Positions 20-39,016 are shown, counted from the first letter of the stretch. The stretch is DNA of 39,139 nucleotides from Bacteroidota bacterium (GCA_021789975.1 JAJYIT010000039.1:1-39139), one strand, 5' to 3'. Notes: generated by a model not told the origin, from the sequence alone. A program made the numbers and translations.

Positions 20-126
20 AGGTGCTGTCTCCTTTGTTTTGTCGGTTGTCTTGTTTTTTCCCAATTACAATTTTAACCGACTGGAGCGGCACCTCCTAAT
101 TTTTACACAAAGTTACGGACATCACC
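1..126 (-). mobile_element. End of an IS256/Mutator-like insertion sequence
   Basis: Read on the minus strand the element starts at 126 with GGTGATGTCCGTAACTTTG, followed by TGTAAAAATTAGGAGG. The same sequence starts at 39017 on the plus strand. From memory it resembles the IS256 terminal repeat (a TCCGTA..TTGTGTAAAA core), which is the basis for the family call. Behind the terminus come a leader, a ribosome binding site (AAAGGAG, complement of 29-35) and the first codons of an ORF running off the contig. The element interrupts the methyltransferase gene whose last sense codon ends next to position 126. The rest of the element and its target duplication lie outside the window. Confidence 0.7.
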
Positions 127-737
127 TACTCGATCCGCAAATCAGCATCTTCACCCGACAAAGCCTTGCTTATTTCTACATTCGTCTCCCTATACTGGTC
201 CAAATCATATTTCAATATTTCTGATGGAAATGAATAATCGTCTAAGGTAGGTGCTGTCCTCTCAAAACCCTTACCGTGTGGCACCGGAGTCTTTGCCAAG
301 AAAAGTTGCAGTAAATCGTCATTTACCTCAAGGTTCCGCTCAGAAAACGCATGTCTAATTACATCAAACGCGAGATAATTGCTTGCGCCGGAGTACAGTG
401 CAGACATTCCGATCCCAAGTGAATCCCCCGGTCCAATCTCAGCAACGGTCTTGATTTGAGCTATATCGCTCACGAGCCCATTACCATACAAATGCTTTAG
501 ATGTCTCAACCACACCGAGTAACAGTATGCGCTACTTGTGGTCCCACCTGTGCCGGGACGCATCATTAATCTCTCTGGTAAGACAAAACTTGCAAGGGTT
601 CACAATATCGGGTAGGGACGAATGTTCACCCAATTCCTCCAGTAGTTAATGAAAGAGTAATCATTTGAGACCGATTTAAACTGGATCTTGTGAATTTGAG
701 TATTTTCTTGGGTAAGCCAAAGAACACGCAGGAATCA
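126..737 (-). pseudogene. Sugar/polysaccharide SAM-dependent methyltransferase, broken at both ends
   Basis: An open frame from 566 encodes about 146 residues with PGTGGTTSSAYCYSVWLRHL and a SAM-binding glycine motif, VAEIGPGDSLGIG, as in class I methyltransferases often found in polysaccharide loci. The family is normally about twice as long. At the 3' end the left IS starts exactly where the frame stops: the TAG takes TA from the gene and G from the first base of the element. At the 5' end the same frame continues upstream (RLMM is preceded by LPE) but a TGA at 600-602 interrupts it. Before that TGA a protein-like stretch (YSFINYWRNWVNIRPYPIL) runs up to a further stop at 735-737. An ATG at 790 overlaps the stop of the upstream ATP-grasp gene as ATGA and may be the original start, but it is in another frame. 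I infer a dead gene; the last gene of the polysaccharide locus. Confidence 0.65.
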
Positions 738-786: not shown

Positions 787-1797
787 TCATATTTCCTTCA
801 ACAAATCTTCCACCATCCATCCATAAGGATCAAACTTTTCTTCGTGCCAGTTGAGATTCTTATCCCAGTAGCCGGCGCAAGGGTCATAACCTTCAGGTGT
901 GAAACCATAGGAGATTTCGACAGCCTTCGGTTCCCCATTGTCAAAGACATAATCTAAAGCCAGCGATTGCGATTTGATCTTCTTATTTATGGCGAACGAT
1001 AGCTTTATGAGTTCATCGCGGAAGTTCTCTTTTTCATAGCGGATGTCGCCGCTTCCCGAAGCCCTGAAGTCGTTCTTCCTCACGAGCCTTTTGATCGCAA
1101 AAGCTTTGTCTCCGATAACGATGACCCTTATGTCAAAATCGTTTCCGGGTATGAAGTCTTGAAAATAGACGTAACCCCGATCCGGACCTTTAATCGTGGA
1201 GTAGACCGGTGGGTGGGCAAGCCGGACAATTCCCTTTGCGACGTCCCATGCGTTGGTTTTCCCGAGCCGGTATTTGCGCCACCTCTCGCTCAGATTGGAC
1301 CACGGATCATATTGTGTGAACCCTCTGCCGAAAGCCCTCCCGATTAGCATCTTCGCTTCGGACCTGGTGTTCACGAGCCGCACACTGGCCGACCCGGCTC
1401 CTCCGCGTAGTTTCAAAACTTTCGGAAAGCGTGTTCCATCAACCCAGTTCAGCGCTTCTTTTTCGTCGTAGAATACATAACTGGGGACAAAGGGCGCTTT
1501 AACGGCCTCCAGCAAATACTTCTGGCCCAATTTGTCATCGAAATGCCACGCCGTATTATAGTCCGGGAAGACTCTCATGCCTGCCTGCTCAAGTGAGAAG
1601 AGAAGCTGCTTCGCAAACAGAAGCTCCTTGGGGTTGTCCTGGTGATGGTGCCACATCAACGCTTTGCAGTCGCCAAGTTGCTGGATGATGTCGTTCGCGT
1701 GGCAGTCGACCAGCTTGTAGGGAATGCTCCTCTCCTGACAATAGCGGACCCATCTTGGATGAAAACCTGCTTGGCTGTTATGGATGGCTACATTCAC
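787..1797 (-). CDS. ATP-grasp domain protein, polysaccharide locus
   Basis: 336 residues. ATP-grasp features are visible: a lysine-bearing strand and glycine loop FPKVLKLRGGAGSASVRLV (about 124-142), FQDFIPGNDFDIRVIVIG (about 212-229) and the metal-binding C-terminal strand LDYVFDNGEPKAVEISYGF (281-299). The family joins a carboxylate to an amine or thiol using ATP, via an acyl-phosphate. The N-terminal pre-ATP-grasp part (MNVAIHNSQAGFHPRWVRYC) starts like a Rossmann-type domain. It overlaps the CapA-like gene by 20 bases and its stop overlaps an ATG at 790, so it belongs to the operon. A plausible job is adding an amino acid or peptide to the glycan or making such a precursor, but the substrate cannot be read from sequence. 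Confidence 0.75.
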   Translation of the reverse strand: MNVAIHNSQAGFHPRWVRYCQERSIPYKLVDCHANDIIQQLGDCKALMWHHHQDNPKELLFAKQLLFSLEQAGMRVFPDYNTAWHFDDKLGQKYLLEAVKAPFVPSYVFYDEKEALNWVDGTRFPKVLKLRGGAGSASVRLVNTRSEAKMLIGRAFGRGFTQYDPWSNLSERWRKYRLGKTNAWDVAKGIVRLAHPPVYSTIKGPDRGYVYFQDFIPGNDFDIRVIVIGDKAFAIKRLVRKNDFRASGSGDIRYEKENFRDELIKLSFAINKKIKSQSLALDYVFDNGEPKAVEISYGFTPEGYDPCAGYWDKNLNWHEEKFDPYGWMVEDLLKEI

Positions 1798-2926
1798 GTT
1801 CCAGAATCCTCTGTAGTACGTCGCGATGAGCTTCGCAACGAATTAGGTTCAACAAGAGCCGCTTCTTCTCGCGGGACCAGAGGCTAGGAAACCATTTCCG
1901 GTTCTGCATCGCGCTCACTATCCGACTTTGGTGCGGCTCTATAAATGCATCGTACATTTTTCGCTGGTGGTCGACATATTCTTCGAAAGCATTTTCTAGT
2001 CTTGAGTCCGCGGCAATGATGTCGTTTAGTTTTCCAATCCGAATAGTTCTTTCTTCAAGTTCTTCCTCATTGCTTAACCTTACTCCCACCCGCTCATCGT
2101 TTTGATTGAAGTGGATTAAATCGAAGGTAATCCGTCTCTTACTCAATTCGAGGAGAACTGCCATACCTTCATTCCAGAAAGAATGATGTCGCACCTTATT
2201 GTCAAACACAAAGTTTCCCACAGAATAGAAAATGGGCGCGCTGTTGTACACTTCGTACCCGGCAACACAATGGGGGTGGTGATTGATCACAGCATCGGCC
2301 CCTGCATCGACAAAAAACCGGAAAAGTCTTTTCATGTGGGGGCTTGGAAGAGGGTACATCTCGTGTCCGCCGTGCGTTATCACAATTACCCTGTCTGACT
2401 TCGTTTTCGCCGACTTTATCGAATTGTAATTCCTCAGCGGATCTATGGGGTTAGCTCCCGCACCCGCGGTGATGGTCGTTGACCATTCATTCTCTGCGAA
2501 ATTTAGAATCGAGATTTTTACTCCCTTCATGGAAGATTGAAAGGGTTCCGCGGCCTTCTCAAGGCTGCTCCCCGCTCCCACATACGACAAGTTATTTTGC
2601 CTGAGGGTATCGAGAGTCTCCTCCAGACCTCCTTGACCGTAGTCCATTATGTGGTTGTTTGCAAGTGACACCATCTTGAAGCCAGCGTATGCCAACGACC
2701 CGGCGCTTTTCGGGTCGGCCTTAATCGCAGGCCCGGTCTTCACTATCGGCACGCTCCCTTTGGTCAGAGGGGACTCCAAGTTCGTTATCGCAAAATCGGC
2801 TTGCTGAACAAATCGACGAAAATCACCAAATAGTGCATCGTTCTCCCCCCGAGCGATTAATGCGGCAGTGCGATTCCCACCGAAGAAATCGCCCGTTATT
2901 AAGACGCTCGCGGAATCTTCTACCAC
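1778..2926 (-). CDS. CapA-like metallophosphatase-fold capsule protein
   Basis: 382 residues, GTG start directly after the stop of the upstream gene (TGA then GTG, no gap). It carries the metal-centre motifs of the CapA/PgsA family (calcineurin-like fold): ITGDFFGG (10-17), NLESPL (49-54), LANNHIMDYG (88-97), ITHGGHE (183-189), INHHPH (214-219) and YSVGNFVFD (234-242). CapA proteins are tied to poly-gamma-glutamate and other capsule synthesis, but their reaction is not settled. No N-terminal signal or anchor helix is obvious, unlike the classical membrane-anchored CapA, so it may act in the cytoplasm. Its tail (from about 260) is charged and helical. It overlaps the ATP-grasp gene by 20 bases, suggesting linked function. 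Confidence 0.85.
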   Translation of the reverse strand: MVEDSASVLITGDFFGGNRTAALIARGENDALFGDFRRFVQQADFAITNLESPLTKGSVPIVKTGPAIKADPKSAGSLAYAGFKMVSLANNHIMDYGQGGLEETLDTLRQNNLSYVGAGSSLEKAAEPFQSSMKGVKISILNFAENEWSTTITAGAGANPIDPLRNYNSIKSAKTKSDRVIVITHGGHEMYPLPSPHMKRLFRFFVDAGADAVINHHPHCVAGYEVYNSAPIFYSVGNFVFDNKVRHHSFWNEGMAVLLELSKRRITFDLIHFNQNDERVGVRLSNEEELEERTIRIGKLNDIIAADSRLENAFEEYVDHQRKMYDAFIEPHQSRIVSAMQNRKWFPSLWSREKKRLLLNLIRCEAHRDVLQRILERECSHP

Positions 2927-4048
2927 TCAACCCTCATCGATGAGTCTTCCTAGCGCGCCTGAGGAGAGAAATCGAACGTCAGGCCACCTCCTCAACAATG
3001 ATTGAAGCAATAGATTGAGCAAACGTAGGTTGCGGTCCCTATTTGCCGCATTGATGAAGCCAACGTAATTCACCCTGTGTGATGAAATCACAGCAGGTTT
3101 CCCGTACCTGAAAGCCGTGGATATCTGAGCCATGCAACGATCAACCCAATCAATGTTAGGGCTTGAAGCAGGTTCGAATATGACGTTGCGAACTAAGTAA
3201 CGTTGTCCTAGATGGTTCTTCTGCCCCTGGTAGTGCGGCCTTGTATTCTTGGGTCGCTCATAAGCCTCAGAGAGATACTGATTCCTGATCCCTTGAATAT
3301 ACCTAACCCCAGATTGGTGTAACACACTCTCCACCGGATCATCCCAAACGTAGTTTGGCGCGACGAAAGACTCGGAAGCATATCCGAAGGTGTCTTGGAA
3401 CAACTTTACCGCTTCCTCGACTATTATTCCTTTCTCGTGGAGCGGGCCCCCATCAGTGCGGTCAAAGGCAGCCAGATAGCTTCCTCTCTTCTCCCTGACT
3501 ATGTGCCGACTCACAGCAAAAACGCCGAGATCAAAAGCTCTCGCTGTTTCTCCTAGCCCATTTCTCAAATCGCGCATCCACAGAGAAACGTTAAGATGCT
3601 CCCGTCCATGCAACTCCGGGTGGAAAACACCATCGTCCATGCCCGCTTTCCAAAGCGAAAACGAATTCTGGTGTTCCGGATACCGCTTCAATGTCTCTCT
3701 GAAGTGTTCGAAATAGTAATTCCTAAACCCGTCGGCTTTTATTCTCGCGAAGTCCGGATTCACCATGATGCAGTTCGCCGTGATGAGGGGGTGAATGCCC
3801 CCCGAGTCCTTGTACTTCATTAGCAGCTCAAACAAGTTCTCCAGATCTCTTTCACTGGCCAGGCTGTCGTTCATCATGTAGTGACAAGCTTCGACATTGA
3901 AACCGTCATCCTTGAGTGCCTTGAGGACTTCCTTCGATGGAGTTCGCTCACTGCCCCAGTCGTCGGACTCTATCACGACTATTCTGCGATCGGTTCGCCA
4001 CCCGCGTAGGTTCACGATGCTATCGGACAAGAATCGTTTAACACTCAT
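2927..4048 (-). CDS. NodB-like polysaccharide (de)acetylase, copy 2 of a tandem pair
   Basis: 373 residues from ATG 4048, chosen because GAGAAG sits just ahead and the upstream gene stops at 4053; a start at 4087 would overlap that gene by 35 bases. The deacetylase-like pattern is ESDDWGSE (27-34; Asp pair 29-30), ELHGREHLN (145-153; two His as metal ligands) and VISSHRVNYVG near the C-terminus. The neighbour at 4053-5174 has all of these at matching positions. Members with this ESDDWG signature are usually annotated as polysaccharide (de)acetylases of the NodB/glycoside hydrolase fold; substrates are unknown. No signal peptide, so it probably acts on cytoplasmic lipid-linked intermediates (inference). 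Confidence 0.7.
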   Translation of the reverse strand: MSVKRFLSDSIVNLRGWRTDRRIVVIESDDWGSERTPSKEVLKALKDDGFNVEACHYMMNDSLASERDLENLFELLMKYKDSGGIHPLITANCIMVNPDFARIKADGFRNYYFEHFRETLKRYPEHQNSFSLWKAGMDDGVFHPELHGREHLNVSLWMRDLRNGLGETARAFDLGVFAVSRHIVREKRGSYLAAFDRTDGGPLHEKGIIVEEAVKLFQDTFGYASESFVAPNYVWDDPVESVLHQSGVRYIQGIRNQYLSEAYERPKNTRPHYQGQKNHLGQRYLVRNVIFEPASSPNIDWVDRCMAQISTAFRYGKPAVISSHRVNYVGFINAANRDRNLRLLNLLLQSLLRRWPDVRFLSSGALGRLIDEG

Positions 4049-4052
4049 CTTC

Positions 4053-5174
4053 TCAATTACCAGAAGTAATGAGACATCCAAGCTCACTAGAAGTCATGAA
4101 TTCGATGTCGGTCCAGTTCTTCACGACGTTGCGTAAGAGTGCTTCCAGTTGCATTAGTCCCCTTGCTTTGTTTTGCGGACTTAAACGACCTATGTAGTTA
4201 ACGCGATGCGAACTGATCACCGCCGGTTTCTTCCATTTGAAAGCGATTTGAATCTCCGACAGACAGGAATCAACCCAATCTTTTCTTCCGTCGCCCGGCT
4301 CGAAGAAGCAATTCCGCGTCAAATATCTTTGCCCATTCTTGTTTTGCTGCCCGAGCCAGTGGAATCTCCTTCCCGTTCTTCCGCCGCCGAGGGCTTCCCT
4401 CTGGATCTTGGAGGTCGACATGAACCTGACGCCATAGTCGTCGGCTAGTTTCTCAAGCGAATTGTTTATCGGTCCGTTCGGCGGGACAAAAAACTCAGCC
4501 TTATACCCGTGCAGTTTCTCGAACAACTCGAGGCCTGTCGTTATTGCCTCTCTATGGGTTTCCAAATCCGCCATGGTCTCCAAATCGAAAGCCGCCTGGT
4601 AACTCACACCGTACTGATGTCTGTTATTGAATCCCCAGAAACCATAATCGAAGGCAAGTCTCGTCTCGCGGTCATTCTGTCGAAGTGCCCGCATCCACGC
4701 GGCGACATTCAGATGCTCTCTCCCATGAAACTGCGGCACGAACAAGCGTTCCTGGATCCCTTGCTTCCACAGCATGAAAGCATCCGATAATCCGTACCTC
4801 CTTAAAGTCTCATTGAAGGGCTCATAGTAGTATTGCTCAAACTTACCCTCCTTTATTCTTTCGAAATCAGGATTTGCAGTGAGGCTGACGGCTGTAAAGA
4901 CGGGGTGGCGTCCGTTTTTGTCCGTGAATTTCGAGAGTGTTTCAAATAGAGAAGACAGGTCATCTGGAGAAGCCAGTGTGTCGTTCTTATTATATCTCTC
5001 CGATTCACCGTCCATCGAAAGTCCCTTACTCTTCAGCGCTTCGTATGCTTTTAATGAAGGCATACGAATACTCCCCCAGTCATCACTTTCAAAAACAATT
5101 ACTCTTCGGTTACTTCGCCACCCCGGGAGGTTAGAAAGACTTCTTCGAAGGGAGTATCTCAAATCAGATATCAC
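4053..5174 (-). CDS. NodB-like polysaccharide (de)acetylase, copy 1 of a tandem pair
   Basis: 373 residues, GTG start. It shares with its neighbour the opening pattern LPGWRSNRRVIVFESDDWGS (16-35; Asp 31-32), PQFHGREHLNVAAWMRALR (148-166; His 150 and 154) and PAVISSHRVNYIG near the end. The two proteins have equal length and clearly related sequence but differ at most positions, so this is an old duplication, not a recent copy. The Asp pair and His-x3-His suggest a divalent metal site typical of carbohydrate esterases. A poor ribosome binding site precedes the GTG. Its substrate is unknown; position in the locus argues for modification of the repeat unit. Confidence 0.7.
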   Translation of the reverse strand: MISDLRYSLRRSLSNLPGWRSNRRVIVFESDDWGSIRMPSLKAYEALKSKGLSMDGESERYNKNDTLASPDDLSSLFETLSKFTDKNGRHPVFTAVSLTANPDFERIKEGKFEQYYYEPFNETLRRYGLSDAFMLWKQGIQERLFVPQFHGREHLNVAAWMRALRQNDRETRLAFDYGFWGFNNRHQYGVSYQAAFDLETMADLETHREAITTGLELFEKLHGYKAEFFVPPNGPINNSLEKLADDYGVRFMSTSKIQREALGGGRTGRRFHWLGQQNKNGQRYLTRNCFFEPGDGRKDWVDSCLSEIQIAFKWKKPAVISSHRVNYIGRLSPQNKARGLMQLEALLRNVVKNWTDIEFMTSSELGCLITSGN

Positions 5175-5233: not shown

Positions 5234-6385
5234 CTACAACGCTGCAATGGAATTCGTTCCCTTGATTCCCGGGGACAGCAAGGTGAAAAACCATTTCAGC
5301 TTCTCTAAATTTTCGCGGTAATGGAATTCAGTTTTTGCGATTTGTTTCGCATTGACGTGCAGTTGACCGACGAGCTTGCGATCGCTGAGGACAAGGAAGA
5401 TCTTCTCCGCGATGTCCTTGGGGTCATCCGGCACGGCATAAACGCAGTGCTTCTTGTCCTTTAGATAACCTGTTACTTCGCCCACCGGCGTGGTGACAAT
5501 CGGTTTCCCCAGGGCCAGGTATTCCCCTAGTCTCGTTGAGAAATTAAATTTGTTCTGCTCCGTCCAAGTCTTGTTGATTACTACCAGGTCACAGGCACGC
5601 TGATAACGAAGGAGGGTGTCATCATCCGGATCATCAAGATAGTGAACGAATGGTTTTAGCTCCGCTTTCTCCACCAGGCTCTCTATTGCATCTGTGACCT
5701 TCCGAAATCCCAAATCCGTTGACAGATAGAAGTGGAGTGGAATTTGATACTTTTCATGGACTATGCTGAACGCTTCAAAGACCGCGATGATGCCATCCTT
5801 CGAGTCGTTCAACGTCGCGCTATGGAGCATAAAGGGATGAGGTAATTGCAAAGGTAGAGATTGTCCATCCTGAAAATACTGGTAGTCAACCAAGATTGGT
5901 ATTTTTGTGATGCTGGCCTTTCGGTTGGAATACCTGGAGACAAACTCACTGAGTGCCTCCGAGATCACTACAAAACCATCTACGAACGGGAACACCAAGT
6001 GCGTGAGGCAATAAAGGTTAATTGGCGCGAAATATTTGAGCACCCTGTCTCGCCTTCCGCTATCCCGGATGGAATACGGCTTCTCGTTTATCTCGAGTAC
6101 CACCCGGCTCCGCTTGAGTCTCACATAGCCGATGATAACAAACTTGCTGACCCACCCGAAGCCGTAGACAAAATAGACATCGGCAACTGTCCTAAGGTTC
6201 AGCAAGTGGGCCAGTGTGTATAGCGGATACAGGAGAGAAAAGAAAACAGACTTGCCGTTTAGCCGGATGGGCAGGATAGAGACCTCTGTCCCCAATGAAA
6301 CGAGCCCCTTCCTGTAGTTGCTGATCCTTCTCGAAGCGGCACCCTTTCCGGGAAATGGGCTATCGTATAAGATTAGAATTCTCAC
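5234..6385 (-). CDS. Glycosyltransferase, GT4-like (GT-B fold)
   Basis: 383 residues from a GTG at 6385 that overlaps the end of the acetyltransferase gene by 26 bases. The start [20 protein letters not shown] is typical of the first GT-B domain. The C-terminal donor domain has [20 protein letters not shown] (284-303), the usual nucleotide-sugar binding region with a conserved Glu (288). Residues about 120-145 are hydrophobic and may dip into the membrane. It should transfer a sugar from a nucleotide donor to a lipid-linked acceptor; donor and linkage cannot be read. Part of the polysaccharide operon. Confidence 0.85.
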
Positions 6386-6989
6386 TCTTCCCCAGAGGCT
6401 TTATAATTCTGCAGGGGTTGCCCGCTGCAATCACGTTTGACGGAATATTCTTGGTAACGACGCTTCCCGCTCCGATAACCGAATTCTCCCCTATTGAGAC
6501 TCCTTTAAGCACCTTCACCCCTTCTCCGAGCCACACATTCTTACCAATTCGTATGGGCCTTGGATTTCCCGATCTCGGATCATCCTCATGCCAATCCCCG
6601 TCTGTGATCAGTGTGTTTGCACCGATCCGGACGTTGTCTTCTATTATGATTTCTTTGAAACACCCTATCACCGTACCGGAGAAACCACACCTTTCACCGA
6701 TCACAAGATTGGCTTCCCGGGTCAGGGCGGAGATTATGCACGGTCGGTTGATCCCTATAAGGTTCGATGTCGGCCGGGATAGGAAAACACACGATCTGCC
6801 TACAGATATTCTTGCTGTCTTGGCTCTCTTGAATTTGGCCCTGCCAACAAATGACACACCTCTCGACAATTTCACGCCACGCAAGCACGCAGAAATTGCC
6901 ATGTATCCGCTCCAGAACCAAGCGCATACACCACGCCAAGTCGAATCAATTCTATTCAATAAGGCATTGGAGAAATCAAACGCGGCCAT
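6360..6989 (-). CDS. Left-handed beta-helix O-acetyltransferase (hexapeptide repeat)
   Basis: 209 residues from ATG 6989. This start is chosen because the upstream glycosyltransferase stops there (overlap TGATG by one base) and homologous sequence begins only after it. Hexapeptide-repeat pattern from about residue 95: [66 protein letters not shown] His in DGDWH (134) fits the catalytic base seen in sugar O-acetyltransferases of the maltose/galactoside/serine acetyltransferase class. Acetyl-CoA is the probable donor. It most likely acetylates a sugar of the repeat unit. A tryptophan-rich hydrophobic start (about 18-35) could associate with the membrane. Confidence 0.85.
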
Positions 6990-8239
6990 CAGTGAGATCT
7001 CTGTATCTGCATATAGACTTTCAACTGTTGCTCGACTATCTTCTTCCTGTTGTGACGAGAAACCGCCTTCCTTCGGGCCGTTTCTCCGAACTTCGCTGCC
7101 TTTCCCCGGTCGTTCTTCAGTTCCAATACGGCACCCGCTAACGCCCACGGATCACCGTCCTGGACCAGGATTCCATCTTCGCCGTCCTTGAGCAGCGATG
7201 GGGTTCCTCCCGCACACGTCGCAATGCAAGGCATTCCAAGCATCATCGCCTCGCAGAGATTGTTCGGACTGTTTTCTATGTGCGAAGGCATTACATAAAT
7301 ATCCGCCTCCAGCATTTTCTGGACCAAAGGCTCTTCGGTCAATGGTCCGAGGAGCACCAGTCCCTTTGAAGGGTACTGCTTACCCAATAATTTCCGGGCC
7401 ACTTTTACTATCAGATCATCTTTTCGTACCCCAGCAACTCTCCACTGCACGTTGTACCCGAGGTTGTTTAGCAAGGTCAGGCTCTGACAGATGGTCTCAA
7501 ATCCCTTATAAGGGCTGTTACCGTTTGTGGTGTGAAGAACCAGCGCATGATGCTCCTGAGGCGCCCAGCGATCTTCGTAAAACGAGTCACGGAGCATCTC
7601 CTCAGATCTGAAGTAAACACTGCCGGGGGCTAAGATCCTCGAAACGCGCCTATCCCAATCCGTTCTTCCAATGACAAATTTACACCGGCTCATGATGAGC
7701 CTTTCCCGATTGCTCATCTTCCGAAAGAGTTTCTGCCTACCCTTGAATGATTCATAAAATGGCACGTCTGCAATCGAGCCAAATTTCAGAACTTTCGTTC
7801 TCAGGCCCATTTGTCCTATGCCGGACAAGAACTTGTGGTAGTGCACGTTGATGATTCCCTGCATCGAAACAACGACAGGTATTTTCGTATGGTCGATAAT
7901 ATTTCCGAAAGGGTTTTCAGTGCCGTGAATGTGGATGACGTCGGGCTTTATCATCTCCACAAGCCGCAAGTATTTTGGGAGGTCCTCGTCATCTGTAAAA
8001 TGCCTGAACAGTTTGGCTCTAAGAAACACCCATCTCCAATGTCTGTCATAGATCGGATAATAGTGAACCCCCTGATGAACGAAATCACCCGAAGGCTTTG
8101 GATGGTAAAAGGCCACATGCAGCTCCACCTTATCCCTCAAGGCTTTATCAAGCGAGCTTAGCCAGCCCCCTCCAACCCCCGGTATCTTGAGATACTCTCC
8201 CCCAGAGGCAGCGGTATTCGAAAACCAAAGGACCCTCAT
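6989..8239 (-). CDS. Glycosyltransferase family 4-like
   Basis: 416 residues, ATG start 6 bases after the end of wzy. The N-terminal half is GT-B like ([33 protein letters not shown] at 99-112). The C-terminal half has [20 protein letters not shown] (about 235-254) and the E-x7-E motif [20 protein letters not shown] (321-340, Glu 322 and 330), diagnostic of GT4 enzymes. It would add one sugar to the growing repeat unit at the cytoplasmic membrane face. The stop overlaps the start of the acetyltransferase by one base, implying translational coupling. Confidence 0.9.
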
Positions 8240-8245
8240 GTTAAA

Positions 8246-9532
8246 CTATACTAATCCAACAATCATTTGCACGTCATCATCAGAGTAACTTCTGATTTCG
8301 TCGGACAGACAAATCCCTAGACTAAGCCAAATCAAAATGTATTCGACGGTAAGGTCCGGCAAGCCGAAACCAACCATGTCAATAAGATTGATCAACACCA
8401 TTGCTGCGGCAGCCTTGCTGAGCAAATTCGAGGAATTGAGCATCCCTCTCTTGACCGCAACAAGTGAGACCAAAATGAATGGGATAAGATAGAAGAGTCC
8501 CCCTTTTAGTATGAGGTACAGATAGCCGTTTTCTATAACGTCGCGCCTTTGATACCCATTTACCGCAGGGTTTGCTATCCCAAGGCTCACCTCATAAGAA
8601 CCATTCATGCCCTTTCCAAAATACCAATCTTCCGGATTGCTATTGAAATCGTTTACGAACTCGTTGATAACACTCACACGGCTGTAAAACACCCCTTGCC
8701 GTTCACCTGTCTCTATCCGCTGGGTGAGGAGCGAAAAATCAGGTTCGAGCGCGTTATATGCCAACAATATGAATGGCGCAGCACCTAGGAGGGCAAGCGC
8801 GAATGCCCACCTTTGCCCTCTCCAATGCCTCCGCGAGCTGAACATAATCATTAGTCCGGCAAAAAAGAATACCGCACCCAAGTACAATATCTCATTTCGA
8901 CGAGCTAGTATTGCCATCAGCGTGAAGGAGACGAGAAGTGCCAGCACAGAGTACATCTGCACGCGTCTGCGGTGGTAGGGCAAAGTGAGAAAAATGAATG
9001 CTGCACCCGACGCAAATGTCCGAGTATAATACTCTGCACCTAGCCTATAATCGTGGGCGAAGCTCAAGAAAAAAGGTAGCGTGAACACCAAGTACAAGAC
9101 AGCCAAGAAGTAGACCAGCTCAATCGACCTCCGGAGAAGAAACAGATCTGGCTTGAAGAGGACTAAGAAGGGAAGCATCGACAGAAGAAGCTGCCCTGAT
9201 ATTAACCTTTTCAAATTCAAATAGTCATTTGCCCGTGACAGCACAGCCGGCAGGCCAATCGCTACAGAGTAGACGACCGAAAGTAGCAAGACCCAGCTTA
9301 ACCACCTGACCAAGACACCGCGGGATTCAAGCGAATAGCCAGTCACGATGCCCTTGATTAGATAGTAGAGCGCCACTGCGCATAGAAAGTATCTCAAGAC
9401 CGGCAAATCAATCCCCCACAAGGTCTGGAACTCACTCACAAATGTCACGGATACAATTGCCAATACCGAGTAATAAATGTATTTCTGCGAAAGTTCCGGC
9501 CAGTAATATCCAAACGGATTTGCGACCTTCAT
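8246..9532 (-). CDS. wzy: Wzy-type O-antigen/capsule polymerase
   Basis: 428 residues with about 11-12 hydrophobic helices and one large polar segment (roughly 275-345, containing RIETGERQGVFYSRVSVINE and FGKGMNGSYEV), the arrangement expected of Wzy polymerases and O-antigen ligases with a big periplasmic loop. Sequence conservation in this family is low, so the call rests on topology and on the neighbouring Wzx and glycosyltransferases. It would join undecaprenyl-linked repeat units in the periplasm. A ligase (WaaL-like) is the main alternative. Its ATG overlaps the stop of the small ORF at 9529-9675 (ATGA). Confidence 0.8.
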   Translation of the reverse strand: MKVANPFGYYWPELSQKYIYYSVLAIVSVTFVSEFQTLWGIDLPVLRYFLCAVALYYLIKGIVTGYSLESRGVLVRWLSWVLLLSVVYSVAIGLPAVLSRANDYLNLKRLISGQLLLSMLPFLVLFKPDLFLLRRSIELVYFLAVLYLVFTLPFFLSFAHDYRLGAEYYTRTFASGAAFIFLTLPYHRRRVQMYSVLALLVSFTLMAILARRNEILYLGAVFFFAGLMIMFSSRRHWRGQRWAFALALLGAAPFILLAYNALEPDFSLLTQRIETGERQGVFYSRVSVINEFVNDFNSNPEDWYFGKGMNGSYEVSLGIANPAVNGYQRRDVIENGYLYLILKGGLFYLIPFILVSLVAVKRGMLNSSNLLSKAAAAMVLINLIDMVGFGLPDLTVEYILIWLSLGICLSDEIRSYSDDDVQMIVGLV

Positions 9533-9675
9533 TTACGTCCACGCAACGATTTCACTTCACCCCGAATATGGTGAGACACACCCGGAGCAGCCCTTCCACG
9601 AATGACCGTGCGCTCCGCGATCACCTTCGAGAATTGTGGGGAGACAAATCGGAAGGTTGCGACGCAGCGCCTCAT
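9529..9675 (-). CDS. Small basic ORF (48 aa) coupled to wzx and wzy
   Basis: This ORF fills the gap between wzx and wzy. Its ATG (9675) overlaps the wzx stop as ATGA, and its TGA overlaps the wzy ATG as ATGA. The peptide starts MRRCVATFRFVSPQFSKVIA and ends VKSLRGRK. It is strongly basic (about a quarter Arg/Lys, two His) with no membrane segment. I recognise no family. It may be a real coupled small protein, a translational bridge that carries ribosomes into wzy (which otherwise lacks an obvious ribosome binding site), or chance. The double ATGA junction is the main evidence. Confidence 0.45.
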   Translation of the reverse strand: MRRCVATFRFVSPQFSKVIAERTVIRGRAAPGVSHHIRGEVKSLRGRK

Positions 9676-11033
9676 GCGGCCCATATGCCACGTGCCCCGC
9701 CAGTCATGATCACCTTGTATTGATAGTACGCAAGCCAGAGTGCTATCACCTGTGTCGCCAGCGTAGCGGCAATCACTCCTGCTACCCCGAGGCTTGTAAA
9801 TTTCGCCAGCACAATTGACAAAGGAATATTCGCGACAGCGGCGCCTAGGGCTACGTACAATTGAAGCTTAATGAAGCCAGTGCCATTTATGAAGTTCGTG
9901 AATATCGCGTTCATCGTCTGAACTGCCACAAATAAAGCCCATACCAGAGAGAGGACGAAAGGAATGCGGACCTTGTTGCCCACCCACACTCTGAATGCGT
10001 CCGTCGAGAACAACAACATTATGACCAACAAGGCTGCAGCCCAGTACCACAATCGCACCAACTTTCTCATTCCCCTCTTTATCCAGGCAAAATCTCTCTT
10101 CACGAAGGCCTCGGTTATAGCTGACCAAAAGGGTGTTACCACAACTACAAACCCCATAAGGACCATTCCGAAATATCTGTTTGCAATCTGGTAAGGGGTG
10201 ACTTCCTTTGGAGAAAAGATCTGGGCTATAATGACATTATCCGTCGAGTAAAGAACGACTCCGCAAATCTGGAGGAGAAAGAATTTGCCGCCCAACCCAA
10301 GAATGTCCTTTAGGTATGCTCTCCTGAACCACCCAAGACTGGGTCGATAATTCTTGAGCCGGTAGGAAAAAGCCAAGAGACTCCCGAGGAAAATCACGAA
10401 TACCGGTGCCACACTGTAGGAGATCCCGAGGTAAAGCAAGGAGTTGGAGGTCGTTTTGACCAGAACAAAAACCAGGAGCAAATTCAACAGCTGGCCAATA
10501 GTACCCATCAGATCGTTTAGAGCTGGTTCTTGAATAGCGTAGAAGATGCTGTTCAACAGCTGCAGCACTAGCCTCAGGAAGAAGAACCCAAAGACGTACA
10601 ATGCAAGCAATCTAAGGTCACCGTTGGCCACGGCAGTCGCGTTCAGTATGGAAGACCAGTTGAGAAAACAATTGATCCCAACGAACATCAGGAATCCAGC
10701 TGCGGACACCAACAATACGGAGAAGTAAGCAGTTGATATGTACGCCCGCGCCACCTGCTCATCGCCTTTCGCCAAAGCTTCAGCCAGCCTATTACGTAAG
10801 CCATTCCCCAGCCCGACATCAAAAAGCCGGAACCATCCGACTATGGAACTAAGGGTTAGCCAGATTCCATATCCCGTCGCATCTAGGTAGTTCAGAGTGA
10901 GCGGTACTAGTAGCAGTCCGGCAACGATCTGCGTGGATCGTAAGACAAACGAAAGCGCAACGTTTCTCTTTATCCTTGCTGTTCTAGGACTGCCAGAAGT
11001 GAAATTACTTGCGAACTTAACGGTAGACTCCAC
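9672..11033 (-). CDS. wzx: Wzx-like polysaccharide flippase (MOP superfamily)
   Basis: 453 residues with about 12-14 hydrophobic helices along the whole length. The N-terminal region RNVALSFVLRSTQIVAGLLL, then LDATGYGIWLTLSSIVGWFR and LFDVGLGNGLRNRLAEALAK, is typical of Wzx/RfbX polysaccharide transporters (GYGIW, DxGLGNGLRN). It should flip undecaprenyl-linked repeat units across the inner membrane. It pairs with the downstream Wzy, so the locus is of Wzx/Wzy type, not ABC-transporter type. The stop overlaps the next ATG (ATGA). Confidence 0.9.
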   Translation of the reverse strand: MESTVKFASNFTSGSPRTARIKRNVALSFVLRSTQIVAGLLLVPLTLNYLDATGYGIWLTLSSIVGWFRLFDVGLGNGLRNRLAEALAKGDEQVARAYISTAYFSVLLVSAAGFLMFVGINCFLNWSSILNATAVANGDLRLLALYVFGFFFLRLVLQLLNSIFYAIQEPALNDLMGTIGQLLNLLLVFVLVKTTSNSLLYLGISYSVAPVFVIFLGSLLAFSYRLKNYRPSLGWFRRAYLKDILGLGGKFFLLQICGVVLYSTDNVIIAQIFSPKEVTPYQIANRYFGMVLMGFVVVVTPFWSAITEAFVKRDFAWIKRGMRKLVRLWYWAAALLVIMLLFSTDAFRVWVGNKVRIPFVLSLVWALFVAVQTMNAIFTNFINGTGFIKLQLYVALGAAVANIPLSIVLAKFTSLGVAGVIAATLATQVIALWLAYYQYKVIMTGGARGIWAA

Positions 11034-11117: not shown

Positions 11118-11702
11118 TTACGTGCTAATTCTGGGAGCTTCAGACTCGGAGCTTACCATGCTTGAGTTCGAATAATACCACTCGGTTGCCCTGGCGAACC
11201 CTTCCTCAGTATTACTGCTTGGATGGTACCTCAGAATGATTTTGGCCTTGATAATGCTAGCTTGCGAGTGTGGTATATCTCCTACTCTAGGCGGCCCAAA
11301 TTCCGGCTGGACTTCTGCAATCGCGGCATCGTACTTCGCCAGATTCTCACGCAAAGCATGGAAGAGTTCTAGAAGTGTGGTATTGGCTCCGTAGGCAATG
11401 TTGAAGACCTCAGAGAAATTGTCTCCACCAGTGTCAAACCGATTGGCGCCGTTCTTCTTCTGCAGAAAATATTTATACTCCTCCAACTCGAGATTGTAGT
11501 ACTCTTTCTGGCCTTTACGGATTTGCTCCGCCGGCGTGAACAGGGCCTTCTCATTCGCTTGCACGACGTTGTCTATGTACGTGAAATCCCGGCTGTAGCT
11601 TCCGTCTCCGTTGATAACGGAGCTTTCGTGGTCGATCAGTTTCTTCACCCATAGAGGAATGACAGCCGCGTACGTGCCGTTCGGCTCTGGCCCCTTTCTC
11701 GC
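11118..11702 (-). pseudogene. C-terminal half of a second NAD-dependent sugar epimerase
   Basis: The open frame runs from 11702 (just after an in-frame TAG) to 11118. From ARKGPEPNGTYAAVIPLWVK onward it matches the product of 15023-16168 from about residue 183 to its end (GKRQDPNGVYAAVIPLWVK; INGDGS.SRDFTYI.NVVQA; GDIPHSQASI). The NAD-binding domain and the catalytic Ser-Tyr-Lys half are absent. An internal ATG at 11648 could still express 176 residues, but these cannot form an active enzyme. The sequences differ by roughly a quarter to a third, so it is a diverged paralogue and not a fresh duplicate. The sequence just upstream is from a different gene (see 11695-11730). Confidence 0.8.
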
Positions 11703-11812: not shown

Positions 11813-12559
11813 CTATTTTACTGAAAACGTGGTCCACACAGACCTTGCTCCTTCATAGGGCCGTCCCGTACTATCTACTCCGAACCTATCGACCCGCCAT
11901 TTATAGAAATGGCCCGAGACAAGCTGCGAAATCGCAGTGCTGTCAAAGTTGAACTTAGCATAGCTTTCGGAACTTCCAAACATTTGAAATCTGGGAGTAA
12001 TCCAGACGTATTGCGAGGGGATATCCGATACATCTTTAACTCGTAGAACTATGTATCCCCCACTGATCCTGTCCACCCAATTGAAAACCAATTTCGAATC
12101 ATCCCTAGGACTATTCCCCCAAGGATAAATGTACGGTCTTTGGAGAAGTTCGTAGTCCACTGTGTCGGATCGACTGCTGTAAGTATTGTCGTGACCGTAA
12201 GCTTCAAGATAGTAGTAATATCTGATCCCTGTTGTCGCTCCCCTGTCCACAATGGATGTGTCATTCAATCCCGAGGCTGAAGCAACATCAGCCACCAATG
12301 CGAAGAGCAGGGGCATACCCTTCACATCACTCGTATCGGATCGATACACCTTGTACCCTACCGCTCCCGGGACGCTGTACCACTGCAGAAACATTCCGCC
12401 AGTAGCTGGGTCCTGTCCGATTCCGGTTTCTTCGACCGAGTCGTGTTGAGACTGTGGCACGAAATGCGGAGTACCGATCGTCGATACCTGTGGGCCCTGC
12501 TTGACGCAGCCTGCAAGGGAGAGGAGGGAAAGCAGAGCAAGAAAGAGAGTTCGGTTCAA
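11813..12559 (-). CDS. Lipoprotein with fibronectin-like domain
   Basis: Signal sequence MNRTLFLALLSLLSLAGC with an LAGC lipobox: lipidation of the Cys and export are expected. The body has one fibronectin-III-like stretch (LQWYSVPGAVGYKVYRSDTS, later RYYYYLEAYGHDNTYSSRSD) and a second beta-rich part (VFNWVDRISGGYIVLRVKDV; YKWRVDRFGVDSTGRPYEGA). Start choice is unusual: no ATG fits. TTG at 12559 gives a perfect signal peptide; TTG at 12595 would add 12 residues coded by repeat DNA. Both TTG codons lie inside TTGAAC heptad repeats and neither has a ribosome binding site. It sits between fcl and the deletion scar; a role in polysaccharide export or attachment is only a guess. Confidence 0.7.
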   Translation of the reverse strand: MNRTLFLALLSLLSLAGCVKQGPQVSTIGTPHFVPQSQHDSVEETGIGQDPATGGMFLQWYSVPGAVGYKVYRSDTSDVKGMPLLFALVADVASASGLNDTSIVDRGATTGIRYYYYLEAYGHDNTYSSRSDTVDYELLQRPYIYPWGNSPRDDSKLVFNWVDRISGGYIVLRVKDVSDIPSQYVWITPRFQMFGSSESYAKFNFDSTAISQLVSGHFYKWRVDRFGVDSTGRPYEGARSVWTTFSVK

Positions 12560-12800
12560 TGTTCGGGGTTCAGAGCCCGCGGAAAGCGAGTTCAAGGTTC
12601 TAGGTTCAGAGTTCTAAGTTCAATGTTCCAGGTCCGCAGCTGCATCGCTCGCCAACCTTGAACTCCGAACTGCCCTTAACTTTGAACATCGTTTCGGAAG
12701 AGGTTCCAGGTTCTGAGTTCCAAGTTCTGCGCCGGCTTGTCCGCCATCATTTAGGCGGAAGGCGCATCAGCCTTTGACTGAGATGTTCGAGGTTCCGGGG
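12549..12800. repeat. Heptanucleotide GTTCNNN array with GC-rich module
   Basis: From 12590 seven consecutive 7-mers follow each other: GTTCAAG, GTTCTAG, GTTCAGA, GTTCTAA, GTTCAAT, GTTCCAG, GTCCGCA. Further units lie at 12554-12574. From 12654 the same repeat occurs inverted (AACCTTGAACTCCGAACTG), so forward and inverted parts could pair into a long hairpin. Direct units resume at about 12706 and lead into GTTCTGCGCCGGCTTGTCCGCC, written here as two parts: GTTCTGCGCC and GGCTTGTCCGCC. The array covers the 5' end of the lipoprotein gene and nearly the whole gap to fcl. Confidence 0.85.
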
Positions 12801-12877: not shown

Positions 12878-13789
12878 TTATAAATGAATTACCTCGCGTA
12901 TTCCGTCCCTAAGAGAGATGCTCGCTTTCCAACCTAACTTGTTGATCATCGAGACATCGAGAAGTTTCCTCGGAGTACCGTCAGGTTTAGCCGTATCAAA
13001 TATGATCTCGCCTTTAAAGTCCACAGTTTTAGCGATCATTTCAGCGAGTTCCTTGATGGTGACATCCTTGCCAGTTCCGACGTTAAGAATCTCGTTACCA
13101 TTGTAATTCTCCATGAGAAACAGACACGCATCCGCCATATCGTCAACATGCAAAAACTCTCGCCTTGGATTTCCGGTCCCCCACACGGTGACTGAAGGCG
13201 GGGCGGATCGCTTTGCTTCCACGAACTTCCGCACCAACGCAGCAAGAACATGAGAGTTCTCAAGATCGAAGTTGTCATTCGGTCCGTATAGGTTGGCAGG
13301 CATGACGGAGATGAAATTTGTACCGTACTGCTTGTTGTATGCCTGACACATCTTAATCCCTGCGATCTTCGCGACGGCATACGGCTCGTTCGTCGGCTCG
13401 AGTTTTCCGTCGAGCAGATATTCCTCTTTCATCGGCTGCGGTGCGAATTTCGGATAAATGCACGAGCTGCCGAGGACACAGAGTTTCTTTACTCCGGACA
13501 AATATGAGTTGTGAATGATGTTGTTTTGGATCTGAAGGTTGATATATATGAATTCTGCCGGGTATGTGTTGTTGGCATGTATTCCGCCGACCTTCGCCGC
13601 CGCCAGGAAAACATACTCAGGTTTTTCTTGCTCAAAGAACTCTTTGACGGCTGCCTGATCTACTAGGTCCAATTCCGCGTGCCTACGGACAACTATGTTT
13701 TTGAAACCCTTTTTCTCCAGTGCACGGACTAATGCGGACCCGACAAGCCCGAGGTGGCCGGCAATATATATCTTTGAATTCTTATCCAA
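12878..13789 (-). CDS. fcl: GDP-L-fucose synthase
   Basis: 303 residues, usual family length. It converts GDP-4-keto-6-deoxy-mannose to GDP-L-fucose (3,5-epimerase and 4-reductase, NADPH). Visible: Rossmann motif GHLGLVG (11-17), [14 protein letters not shown] (107-120) with the catalytic Ser and Cys, YAVAK (137-141) with Tyr and Lys, [13 protein letters not shown] and [19 protein letters not shown]. It overlaps gmd by 8 bases, the standard gmd-fcl pairing, so the polysaccharide very probably contains L-fucose. Confidence 0.97.
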
Positions 13790-14945
13790 CTGTCTCCCTT
13801 AGCTTCTCATGAAACGAGAATTCGTGATGCGTCCAGTCGAAGCCCTTCGCCTCTACCGCCCTGATGCCTTCTCTCGGCGGTTCCAACCCTACGGCTAACA
13901 TATCGTAATCTACCATTATTTTCAGGAGATCGTCAAAGTTCACGCGCGTTGACCACCGCAGCGCATCCTTTGCTTTACGCGTGTCCGCCTGGAGGAACTC
14001 GACCTCCGTCGGCCTGAAATATCTCGGATCAATCTCTATCAGCACCTCGCCGCTCGAGATTTCACCGTACCACCGCTCGCCGACTTTTTCCGCCACACCT
14101 TTCTCGTGAATTCCCTCGCCTACCCATTTAAGCTCTACGTCGACATACGCGAAGGCTCTTTCGATGAGATCCCTGACTGTATGACTTTCTCCTGTACCGA
14201 CGACGAAATCTGCCGGAGCCTGCTGCTGCAAAATCAGCCACATCATCTCTACATATTCCGGCGCAAATCCCCAGTCGCGCTTCGCGTTCAGGTATCCCAT
14301 GTACAGTTTCTTCTGCCTCCCCGCAAGTATGTTCGCAACAGCGCGTGTCACCTTCCTGCTTACAAAGTTCTCGCCTCTACGCGGGCTTTCATGGTTGAAC
14401 AGGATACCGTTGCAAGCGAACATGTTGTAGGCGTTTCTGTAATCCACCACCATCCAATACGAGTAGAGTTTGGCAATCGCGTAGGGGCTTTGCGGCTGAA
14501 ACAGGGTCTTCTCACTTTGAGGAGGAGGCGCCGAGCCGAATAGCTCCGACGACGACGCCTGATAGAATTTAGTCGTCACACCACTGCGGCGGATTGCTTC
14601 CAGAAGTCTCGTCGTTCCAAGCCCGGTAACGTTCCCCGTAAACTCAGGCATATCGAACGACACGCGAACATGGCTCTGAGCCCCAAGATGGTACACTTCG
14701 TCCGGCCGGACATTGTAAACAATCTCAGTTATCAGGCCAGGGTCTGTCAGGTCTCCATAGTGCAGGAAGAGTCTGTTGTCAGTCTCATGTGGATCTACGT
14801 ATATGTGGTCGATCCTGTGGGTGTTGAACGTGCTTGCCCGCCGGATTATTCCGTGAACTTCATACCCCTTGTTAAGAAGAAGCTCGGCAAGGTATGAGCC
14901 GTCCTGGCCAGTGATGCCGGTTATTAGAACTTTCTTCATGTCCAA
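13782..14945 (-). CDS. gmd: GDP-mannose 4,6-dehydratase
   Basis: 387 residues. It makes GDP-4-keto-6-deoxy-D-mannose from GDP-mannose. Motifs: [15 protein letters not shown] (10-24) for NADP binding, [15 protein letters not shown] (84-98), [10 protein letters not shown] (128-137), [12 protein letters not shown] (153-164; Tyr 155, Lys 159), [16 protein letters not shown] (183-198). All catalytic residues are present. Length is slightly above the classical E. coli form; the extra residues are in the C-terminal third. The product feeds the overlapping fcl. Confidence 0.97.
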
Positions 14946-15022
14946 TAGTTCAATCTTCTAAGTCCAGGGTTCGAAGTCCTGAGAAGAGACAAGAGGATTC
15001 TCCAGCAGAAACAACGGTTCTG

Positions 15023-16168
15023 TTATTTCAGCTGCAGATTTTTGCTCATTTCAAGCTCAGGGCTTGCCTGCGATGGTAGCTCACTCAGGCTTTGGTGATA
15101 CCATTTCGCTGCCCGCGTGAGGCCCTCTTTCGCATCATACCCCGGTCGATAACCTAATATGGTCTCAGCCTTCAAGATGCTTGCCTGGGAATGGGGGATA
15201 TCACCGACTCTGAGAGGCCCGAACCGGGGTTGAATAACTGCAATTGCGGGATCAAACTGCGCGAGACTATCCCGCAAAGTGTCAAAGAGCTGGAGGAGTG
15301 TCGTATTTCCGCCAAGTGCTATGTTGAAGATTTCTGAGATGATTTCGTCTCCAGCTTTGTCCCCATCTGAGCCGTGTTCGCTCTGCATCAAATACTTGTG
15401 CTTATCGAGCCCGGTATTGTAGTACTCTTTTCTCCGTTCGGAAATTTCTTTTGATGGGGTAAACAGAGCCTTCTCATTCGCCTGCACCACGTTCTCAATG
15501 TAGGTAAAATCTCTACTGTGGCTGCCATCACCGTTGATCACCGGACTCGCATGGTTGATCAGTTTCTTCACCCAGAGTGGAATTACTGCGGCATACACGC
15601 CGTTTGGGTCCTGCCTTTTCCCGAACACGTTGAAGTAACGCAAACCAACGCACTGCATCCCATACGATTTAGCGAACACATCCGCGTATAGCTCGTTGAC
15701 GTATTTGGTGACTGCGTACGGAGAGAGGGGCCTGCCGATTTCTTCCTCCACCTTCGGTAGTTTCTTTGAATCCCCGTACGTGCTGGAGCTGCACGCATAG
15801 ACGAACCTCTTGATTTTCCTATCTCTTGCAGCGATGAGCACATTGAGGAAACCATCGATGTTCACTGAGTTTGTATTGGCCGGATCGGCAATCGATCGTG
15901 GCACAGAGCCGAGCGCTGCCTGATGGCAAACGTAGTCGCAATCTTCAATGGCTCTCTTGCACGTCTCCAGGTCCCTTATGTCTCCTTTGATGAACTCGAA
16001 TTTCGGGTCCTCGTAGTGGTGACTGATATTGTGTTCGTATCCTGTGCTAAGGTCGTCAAGACACACCACCTCATGACCGAGTTCGAGAAACCTGTCGATA
16101 AGGTTGCTGCCGATGAAACCGGCGCCGCCGGTGATCAGGATACGGGCGGGAGGAATCGTTTGGCTCAT
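15023..16168 (-). CDS. UDP-sugar 4-epimerase-like SDR (WbpP/TviC-type)
   Basis: 381 residues. NAD-binding GGAGFIG (14-20), CLDDLSTGYEHNI (36-48), YACSSSTYGDS (124-134) and the catalytic pair YAVTK (151-155) are all present, then RYFNVFGKRQDPNGVYAAVI (177-196). This pattern matches the WbpP/TviC group that interconverts UDP-GlcNAc(A) and UDP-GalNAc(A). There is an insertion at about 235-270 (KEISERRKEYYNTGLDKHKY region) that ordinary family members lack; the pseudogene at 11118 has it too. It is the first gene of the minus-strand polysaccharide locus; upstream lies only repeat DNA. Confidence 0.85.
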   Translation of the reverse strand: MSQTIPPARILITGGAGFIGSNLIDRFLELGHEVVCLDDLSTGYEHNISHHYEDPKFEFIKGDIRDLETCKRAIEDCDYVCHQAALGSVPRSIADPANTNSVNIDGFLNVLIAARDRKIKRFVYACSSSTYGDSKKLPKVEEEIGRPLSPYAVTKYVNELYADVFAKSYGMQCVGLRYFNVFGKRQDPNGVYAAVIPLWVKKLINHASPVINGDGSHSRDFTYIENVVQANEKALFTPSKEISERRKEYYNTGLDKHKYLMQSEHGSDGDKAGDEIISEIFNIALGGNTTLLQLFDTLRDSLAQFDPAIAVIQPRFGPLRVGDIPHSQASILKAETILGYRPGYDAKEGLTRAAKWYHQSLSELPSQASPELEMSKNLQLK

Positions 16169-16228: not shown

Positions 16229-16350
16229 GTTCAAAGTTCTATGCTCTGAGTTCTGGGTTCGGGGATAGGAAGTTCTAGGTTCTGCGCCGGGCCTGTCCGC
16301 CACTCTTTATGCAGTATAGCCTTTGGCGCAAGAGGTCAGAAGTCAGAAAC
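16229..16350. repeat. Heptad array plus GC-rich module, second locus
   Basis: Units GTTCAAA, GTTCTAT, GCTCTGA, GTTCTGG, GTTCGGG follow without gaps from 16229, then AGTTCTAGGTTCTGCGCC and GGGCCTGTCCGCC. After the GC-rich part comes TTTGGCGCAAGAGGTCAGAA, leading into AGTCAGAAAC-type units. This is the same order as at 12.7, 18.1 and 19.2 kb: GTTC heptads, TGCGCC..TGTCCGCC block, AGTCAGA heptads. Confidence 0.8.
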
Positions 16351-24474: not shown

Positions 24475-25020
24475 TCATGGCAGCAGGACCGCTACAGCCA
24501 GAACCGTTGTCCACAACCCGTTCCTGTCCCCTTCTGCAGTTTGAGTGATGTTGAATGTCCTGACAATCTTGCCGGACATTTTGAAAACCTGCTCGCGCTC
24601 GTTCCAGTCGGTGTTTGGATCGAACTCAACGCCCAAGGTTGTCGCAAGCATCTGGGCAGCGAGGTCTTCCGCATAATCACCGGCTGATCTCTCGTTGACC
24701 CCGAACGCGTGATGTTCGGAGAGATAGCCGTACTGAGTAGTGTCGGCGGGAATTGCCGCGCCGATGGAAGCGGCCACGAGCCGGTTCGGCTCGTTCGTCG
24801 AGTTCCGCGCCATAACCGTAAATGTAATTTGGCCGTTCCTCATTTCTTTCAGCCCTTCTTCCCTGCTTATTCGCTTGCAACCCGGCGGGAAAATACTGCT
24901 GACGGAAACGAGATTGCAAATCTCGACTCCAGCATCTCTCATCGCCAGCTCGAAGGAGCTCTGGTAGTCTTTGTGTCTTCCGACGCCCTTGGTGAAGTAG
25001 ATCCTCGATGGAACGAACAT
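24475..25020 (-). CDS. pdaD: Pyruvoyl-dependent arginine decarboxylase
   Basis: 181 residues, the usual proenzyme length. It decarboxylates arginine to agmatine, the first step to putrescine and spermidine by the agmatine route. The self-cleavage site is clear: [17 protein letters not shown] (36-51), with cleavage expected between Ser 41 and Ser 42 so that Ser 42 becomes the pyruvoyl group. [26 protein letters not shown] and the Glu-rich C-terminal part are also family-like. AAGGAGG lies 12 bases ahead of the ATG, slightly far. No agmatine-processing gene is adjacent. Confidence 0.93.
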
Positions 25021-31897: not shown

Positions 31898-32271
31898 AAG
31901 CATCTCCTTGGGGCTGTTCCGGAGAGAACTCCGAACTCGTTATAGGTTGTGCTACATTGTTTGAAAATCTAAACAAGCCCCGTAAGTGATGCAAAGGAAA
32001 TCATGCGTAGGTCTGAAGCAGTCTCGCGCGATTTAAGCTCATTCAAATTCACGGCACGACATGCTGCAATCTAATTCCACACGCCACAAAACAAGATTCG
32101 ATGGGGATCAAATCACACTCTTATCATCCTGGAGATCCGGCTGAAAAGCCCACGCAGAAAAGAAAACCGCTGAGACGCTAAGGCGCAAAGTAGAAAATTG
32201 ATTCAATTATTGTCTCCGCGCCCTCGCGTCCCTCAGGCAGGTTCGCGGTGAGACCCTTTTCGGCCACGCTT
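31898..32271. other. Intergenic with inverted repeat
   Basis: ACCGCTGAGACGCTAAGGCG (32166-32185) faces TCTCCGCGCCCTCGCGTCCC and GTTCGCGGTGAG (to 32252). Together they form an imperfect dyad of the GCTGAGACGC/GCGTC..GCGGT type. Nothing else recognised. Confidence 0.5.
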
Positions 32272-38936: not shown

Positions 38937-39016
38937 GGCAACACCTCTAAATAATTGAAGTGCATTTGGTGTCGGAGGAAATATAGATCTTGAACCGACT
39001 ACATTCATCTACCCTG

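Follow-up and report, generated by a model that had tools for sequence, protein, structure and literature searches.

What do two neighbouring deacetylase-like proteins, a protein of the CapA family and an ATP-grasp ligase accomplish when their genes stand together? Such a set occupies positions 787–5174, on the minus strand, of a 39,139-nt stretch of DNA (JAJYIT010000039.1, hereafter the window) from Bacteroidota bacterium GCA_021789975.1, whose genome measures 4.7 Mb. An earlier note on this DNA had described four adjoining or overlapping genes and proposed that they form a glycan aminoacylation module. Open reading frames (ORFs) on the minus strand confirmed the layout: the four genes are co-directional and follow each other in the order DacA, DacB, CapA-like, ATP-grasp, the DacB and CapA-like genes abutting and the CapA-like and ATP-grasp genes sharing a 20-nt overlap. 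The best explanation that we can offer is a module for the amide decoration of a glycan, in which deacetylation precedes amide ligation, and we consider it about as probable as all others taken together. It draws on the CE4 fold and residues of DacA and DacB, the ATP-grasp fold of the ligase, the co-occurrence of the genes in other genomes, an epimerase of the UDP-N-acetylhexosamine (UDP-HexNAc) type in the locus, and a precedent in C. difficile.

Folds and catalytic residues of the four proteins

DacA and DacB are the sole members of the ESDDWG family in this genome. Their divergence, noticed earlier, amounts to 44% identity over 370 residues, and both are 373 residues long if DacB starts at the ATG at 4048. 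The ESDDWG, HGREH and SSHRVN motifs are present in both. In an alignment of the family, D31, D32, H150, E153 and H154 were conserved in all 83 sequences, and H323 in 82 of them. The CE4-type Asp-Asp pair, His-x3-His (H150-x3-H154) and late catalytic His were thus found, as assigned by motif order and fold. The AlphaFold2 (AF2) model of DacA (predicted local distance difference test, pLDDT, 96.6) has the distorted barrel of the NodB type (VIA-align, residues 16–373 covered). Its best structural matches were polysaccharide deacetylases (3rxz, Z 19.6; HP0310, Z 19.1), with PuuE, the deacetylase part of human NDST1 (Z 18.2), GH57 enzymes and ArnD (Z 16.2) as further ones.

At ordinary thresholds neither protein matched a Pfam or NCBIfam model; DacA scored 13.2 bits with PF01522 (Polysacc_deac_1), whose gathering score is 23.1 bits, and the same model matched nine of 72 family members weakly (best E 6.7e-4). 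When the ESDDWG profile was run against PDB sequences, designed repeat proteins alone came up, and these were judged spurious. No relatives were found in the plasmids, phages and viral contigs searched, so that nothing pointed to an origin from a mobile element or phage. In the family tree, DacA belongs to a supported clade of 17 rows and DacB lies outside it, and second copies are mostly found in a separate clade of 50 rows (support 95). Because the two copies mostly fall in separate clades, DacA and DacB are old paralogues kept together, and their retention suggests two distinct substrates or positions.

The ligase matched RimK (PF08443) with 24.1 bits for a cut-off of 21, over its C-terminal half only. 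It fell below the cut-off of TIGR00768, the RimK family of alpha-L-glutamate ligases (46.3 bits versus 143.4), and neither it nor any other protein of its genome matched ATPgrasp_ST (PF14397, gathering score 31.4 bits). A Foldseek search with its AF2 model (pLDDT 89.5) gave ArgX, LysX and RimK as best matches (E 1.6e-14), D-Ala-D-Ala ligase being next. Residues K129, R224, D282, E294 and S296 were invariant among 23 sequences of the ligase family. By prediction, the enzyme should form an amide via an acyl phosphate, and either partner might supply the acid.

The CapA-like protein matched PF09587 (PGA_cap) with 202.9 bits, for a cut-off of 27. It had been described as having no visible anchor, and this holds: no signal peptide, membrane helix or anchor of the CapA/PgsA kind was found, and none of its segments exceeds a 19-residue Kyte-Doolittle mean of 0.89. 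More generally, none of the four proteins has a strong hydrophobic segment (highest mean 1.04) and no export signals were seen in any of them. Genes for CapB/PgsB and CapC were not found as neighbours; the adjoining genes are the ATP-grasp and ESDDWG genes, and the contig stops 786 bases past the ligase.

The nearest solved sequence relative of the CapA-like protein is the lasso-peptide epimerase MslH, and its score with the MslH equivalog NF038314 was 90.4 bits, the cut-off being 700. Each position that serves metal binding or catalysis in MslH has its counterpart (D13, E51, N91, H92, D95, H185, H188, H219). Except for H188, which is Asn in two relatives, they are invariant across nine members of the subfamily, as is a C-terminal motif, C364/E365/H367, within the subfamily. 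Residue identity was dropped as a test for an MslH-type epimerase, since the phosphodiesterase YmdB has the same positions.

Co-occurrence across the phylum

The distribution of these genes was surveyed in 395 genomes drawn evenly from the phylum, the window's own genome being counted and related genomes not being independent. ESDDWG genes were present in 23 genomes, mostly in two copies, which were adjacent or within ~1.4 kb in seven. The ligase family was present in 19 genomes (E up to 1.3e-99), 16 of which also had ESDDWG genes (Fisher p 1.8e-20). At the genus level the association was 8/10 versus 5/160 (p 3.7e-9), and removal of one genome left the picture unchanged. The ESDDWG genomes hold 18 copies of the ligase, every one of them 0–5.2 kb from an ESDDWG gene. 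The second ATP-grasp family, PF14397, was enriched too (11/29 genomes, p 3.5e-8), with genes 0.3–9.4 kb from an ESDDWG gene wherever one contig holds both.

Gene order was inspected in 25 loci, each 12 kb or longer, namely 24 named contigs retrieved by DacA similarity and the window. Two or more ESDDWG genes were found in 17 of these, Asn-synthase-like genes in 10, the ligase in 8, any of these ATP-grasp genes in 11 and a CapA-like gene in 6. Locus L059, from a Bacteroidales metagenome-assembled genome, keeps the window's order from the glycosyltransferases to the ligase, including DacA-DacB-CapA-ligase. Genome G201 and loci L054 (Rhodonellum psychrophilum) and L055 have this order with an Asn-synthase-like gene between CapA and ligase. 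Since the arrangement recurs in many genomes, it is not due to chance.

The CapA subfamily was detected in 11 genomes. In seven of them a ligase relative is encoded no more than 2 kb away, and the ESDDWG-free genomes G065, G066 and G346 are among these seven. In G065, a Pfam-recognised polysaccharide deacetylase (PF01522, 31.6 bits), followed by a formyltransferase, stands beside the ligase and CapA. This one genome looks as if it had exchanged one type of deacetylase for another while keeping ligase and CapA, and no other observation hints so directly at a coupling of deacetylation with ligation.

Other variations were observed around these genes. G364 has four PF14397 genes and the ligase near one deacetylase; in this genome (locus L051) and in G211 (L097), four to five ATP-grasp genes, drawn from two families, lie within ~6 kb of an ESDDWG gene, and such runs would suit the stepwise assembly of a peptide on a glycan. 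DUF362 proteins are encoded near the ligase and deacetylases in L033 (10572–12035) and L052 (9047–10441), and L059 has instead an FrhB-like and a pyruvyl-transferase gene, an exchange that suggests variable further decorations.

Proposed deacetylation followed by amide ligation, and its rivals

Either of two results would have refuted the proposal of the earlier note, namely the loss of catalytic residues in both deacetylase-like proteins or the lack of co-occurrence in other genomes. Neither occurred: the motifs are intact in both proteins, and ESDDWG and ligase genes are found at gene-neighbour distance across genera. The pathway that we favour would run as follows. DacA and DacB, cytosolic and metal-dependent, would each take an acyl group, most likely N-acetyl, off an aminosugar of a nucleotide- or lipid-linked repeat unit, and thereby expose the sugar amine. 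The ATP-grasp ligase would activate a carboxylic acid (an amino acid, a short peptide or a hydroxy acid) as an acyl phosphate and join it to this amine. The CapA-like metallo-enzyme might then act on the added group, either by alpha-carbon epimerisation, as MslH does, or by trimming. What we infer in this scheme is that the group removed is N-acetyl, in which sequence the enzymes work, which way round the amide bond is made, what donates the acyl group and which reaction CapA carries out. The aminoacylation module proposed earlier is thus supported in part: its conserved gene set, CE4 motifs and ligase linkage stand, whereas its product, a glycan bearing an amino acid or peptide as N-acyl group, is hypothetical.

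Several observations weigh against this pathway. The closest solved relatives of the ligase, ArgX, LysX and RimK, couple the amine of an amino acid to an activated carboxylate, a polarity opposite to that of sugar-amine acylation, and the third Mg-ligand position, usually Asn, is in this ligase the invariant S296. Neither ATP-grasp family was found in four of the 23 ESDDWG genomes, and in three genomes the ligase is present without ESDDWG genes. Finally, the residues shared with MslH do not show epimerisation by the CapA-like protein, because YmdB has them as well.

The polarity of the closest folds is what a uronic-acid route would use, and this is the main rival, possible although clearly less probable than the pathway above. 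Here the ligase would activate the carboxylate of an (N-acetyl)hexosaminuronic acid and join it to the amine of an amino acid, the deacetylases separately making free or differently acylated aminosugars. The locus has a TviC-like epimerase. One dehydrogenase for nucleotide sugars, related to WecC/TviB, is encoded in the genome, so that uronic acids are possible in this organism. In related clusters there are, repeatedly, amidotransferases of the Asn-synthase type, whose substrates are carboxylates. However, the dehydrogenase gene lies on another contig, none being present in the locus itself, and the tight linkage of deacetylase and ligase would require some other cause.

A further idea, which we regard as unlikely, is that deacetylases, CapA-like protein and ligase modify independently, and are grouped since surface-polysaccharide loci gather and exchange accessory genes. 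Such loci are indeed mosaic, some genomes have CapA and ligase away from any ESDDWG gene, and the window's genus-mates in the 395-genome sample do not have the genes, which suggests horizontal transfer. Yet generic clustering does not predict a ligase found in just 19 of 395 genomes, 16 of them with ESDDWG genes, nor does it fit the ESDDWG-free genome with a different deacetylase beside ligase and CapA. Least probable, and in our view improbable, is that the ESDDWG proteins remove another group (N-formyl, as ArnD does, or O-acyl) or free an amine that is kept only while transfer takes place, the ligase adding the final acyl; the leaving group does not follow from the CE4 fold, since the deformylase ArnD and the allantoinase PuuE are among the fold matches, but the CE4 matches mostly act on N-acetyl substrates and a HexNAc-type epimerase is present.

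Deacetylation followed by ligation can be extended to a bolder and rather doubtful proposal, that of a widespread Bacteroidota surface-glycan pathway with amine-unmasking and stereo-inversion steps of its own. Aminosugars would be laid bare by a dedicated pair of CE4 deacetylases in the cytosol, then extended with an amino acid or peptide by between one and five ligases of the ATP-grasp type, and a cytosolic CapA-like epimerase would set a D configuration. If the favoured pathway is true, the ESDDWG pair with an ATP-grasp gene would be a genetic marker for surface polysaccharides with amide-linked amino acids or peptides, which so far have mostly been found by chemistry, not from genomes. The ESDDWG family, which has no Pfam model, would gain a function, and the pairing of a soluble CapA-like enzyme with an amide ligase would give a route to what CapA-type proteins do biochemically.

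The surrounding locus and known systems

Judged from the predicted gene products, the set belongs to a Wzx-type surface-polysaccharide locus, of which it is the 3'-terminal part (Table 1). Apart from a short methyltransferase-like ORF, genes further downstream are lost with the contig end, at the very edge of which another ORF appears to begin.

Table 1. Position and assignment of the genes of the four-gene set and of the adjoining polysaccharide locus (window coordinates; aa, amino acids)
Feature	Coordinates	Strand	Basis and remarks
Short methyltransferase-like ORF, probably truncated	126..566	-	Resembles 303-aa protein beside deacetylase in L062/L063, itself with a weak Methyltransf_11 match
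ATP-grasp carboxylate-amine ligase (predicted)	787..1797	-	336 aa; PF08443, AF2/Foldseek
CapA-like, predicted cytosolic metallo-enzyme	1778..2926	-	382 aa; PF09587, calcineurin-like fold family
DacB, second ESDDWG-family protein	2927..4087	-	386 aa from GTG, 373 aa from ATG at 4048
DacA, ESDDWG-family CE4-fold putative N-deacetylase	4053..5174	-	373 aa; ORF, motifs, AF2 model
GT4-type glycosyltransferase, directly upstream of DacA	5234..6385	-	PF00534 42.5 bits; same position in L059
Hexapeptide acyltransferase	6360..7148	-	PF00132; WbbJ-like
GT4 glycosyltransferase	6989..8239	-	PF00534 73.7 bits; L059 orthologue at same place, 532 bits
428-aa protein	8246..9532	-	No Pfam/NCBIfam match; possibly a polymerase, from position alone
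Wzx-like flippase	9672..11033	-	PF01943 33.2 bits; NF041503 WZX_like below its cut-off
GDP-L-fucose synthase-like	12878..13789	-	NF047922 494 bits (cut-off 500)
GDP-mannose 4,6-dehydratase	13782..14945	-	TIGR01472 518 bits (cut-off 415)
UDP-HexNAc/UDP-HexNAcA 4-epimerase-like (TviC relative)	15023..16168	-	NF011728 370 bits, below cut-off of 760

A degenerate second copy of the C-terminal part of the TviC-like 4-epimerase was seen at 11118–11648 (minus strand); stretches of 160 nt (11533–11692 and 15456–15615) are 78% identical, and the GDP-fucose genes lie between the two copies. Breakage of the epimerase gene by an insertion was ruled out, the gene at 15023–16168 being complete and the other a degenerate extra copy. 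Short GTTC-rich direct repeats occur between genes (12554–12724, 14948–14969, 16229–16250). A second, unrelated ATP-grasp protein of 411 aa, with weak PRK12767/archaeal Ddl-like matches, is encoded at 34033–35268 (minus strand), ~29 kb from the set. Other genes of the window are unrelated: a GH9 cellulase-like gene (20048–21877), a pyruvoyl arginine decarboxylase-like gene (24475–25020), a tricorn-like protease gene (28634–31903) and a gene whose product carries a type IX secretion sorting tail (36474–39008).

How far is this a system already described? DacA has in common with the CE4/NodB deacetylases HP0310, ArnD and VhCOD, and with the NDST1 deacetylase domain, the fold and the order of DD, HxxxH and late His. 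In contrast to them, the ESDDWG proteins are only 9–18% identical, score below the PF01522 cut-off, are 373 aa long with extra segments, are cytosolic, and mostly come as two diverged copies. Similarly, the ligase shares with RimK, LysX and ArgX the fold, the ATP-grasp architecture and the D and E Mg-ligand positions, and differs in that it is only ~15% identical to them, scores below the TIGR00768 cut-off, has Ser at the third ligand position and stands in a polysaccharide setting; no carrier-protein gene was noticed in the locus. In poly-gamma-glutamate capsule systems, CapA is likewise paired with an ATP-dependent amide ligase. The CapA-like protein shares its PGA_cap family and metal-site residues with CapA/PgsA and MslH, whereas it differs from CapA/PgsA by the missing membrane anchor and by having an ATP-grasp partner instead of CapB/PgsB.

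The open-access literature searched, which misses most subscription papers, yielded no account of a glycan locus that unites deacetylase, CapA and ATP-grasp genes. The earlier view that this is not a described system therefore applies to the combination and not to its principle: ATP-grasp ligases in glycan loci, and an aminosugar cap that needs one, are already known. The making of O-antigen and of teichuronopeptide has been connected with peptide ligases of the ATP-grasp type (PMC4431377). In the type B flagellin of C. difficile, the amine of Fuc3N carries taurinyl-Ala-Gly, and a mutant of the ATP-grasp gene CDR20291_0245 is without the capped sugar (PMC5207245, PMC5207246). This sulfonated peptidylamido-glycan locus (CDR20291_0244-0247) is, like ours, a glycan locus with an ATP-grasp ligase. 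It differs in that an FdtB-like aminotransferase, and no deacetylase, is believed to supply the amine, in that a FemAB-like acyltransferase is present and a CapA-like gene is not described, and in that its ATP-grasp protein belongs to another Pfam family (PF13535). Relative to this precedent, what sets the window apart is the deacetylase pair, the ATP-grasp subfamily and the CapA-like gene.

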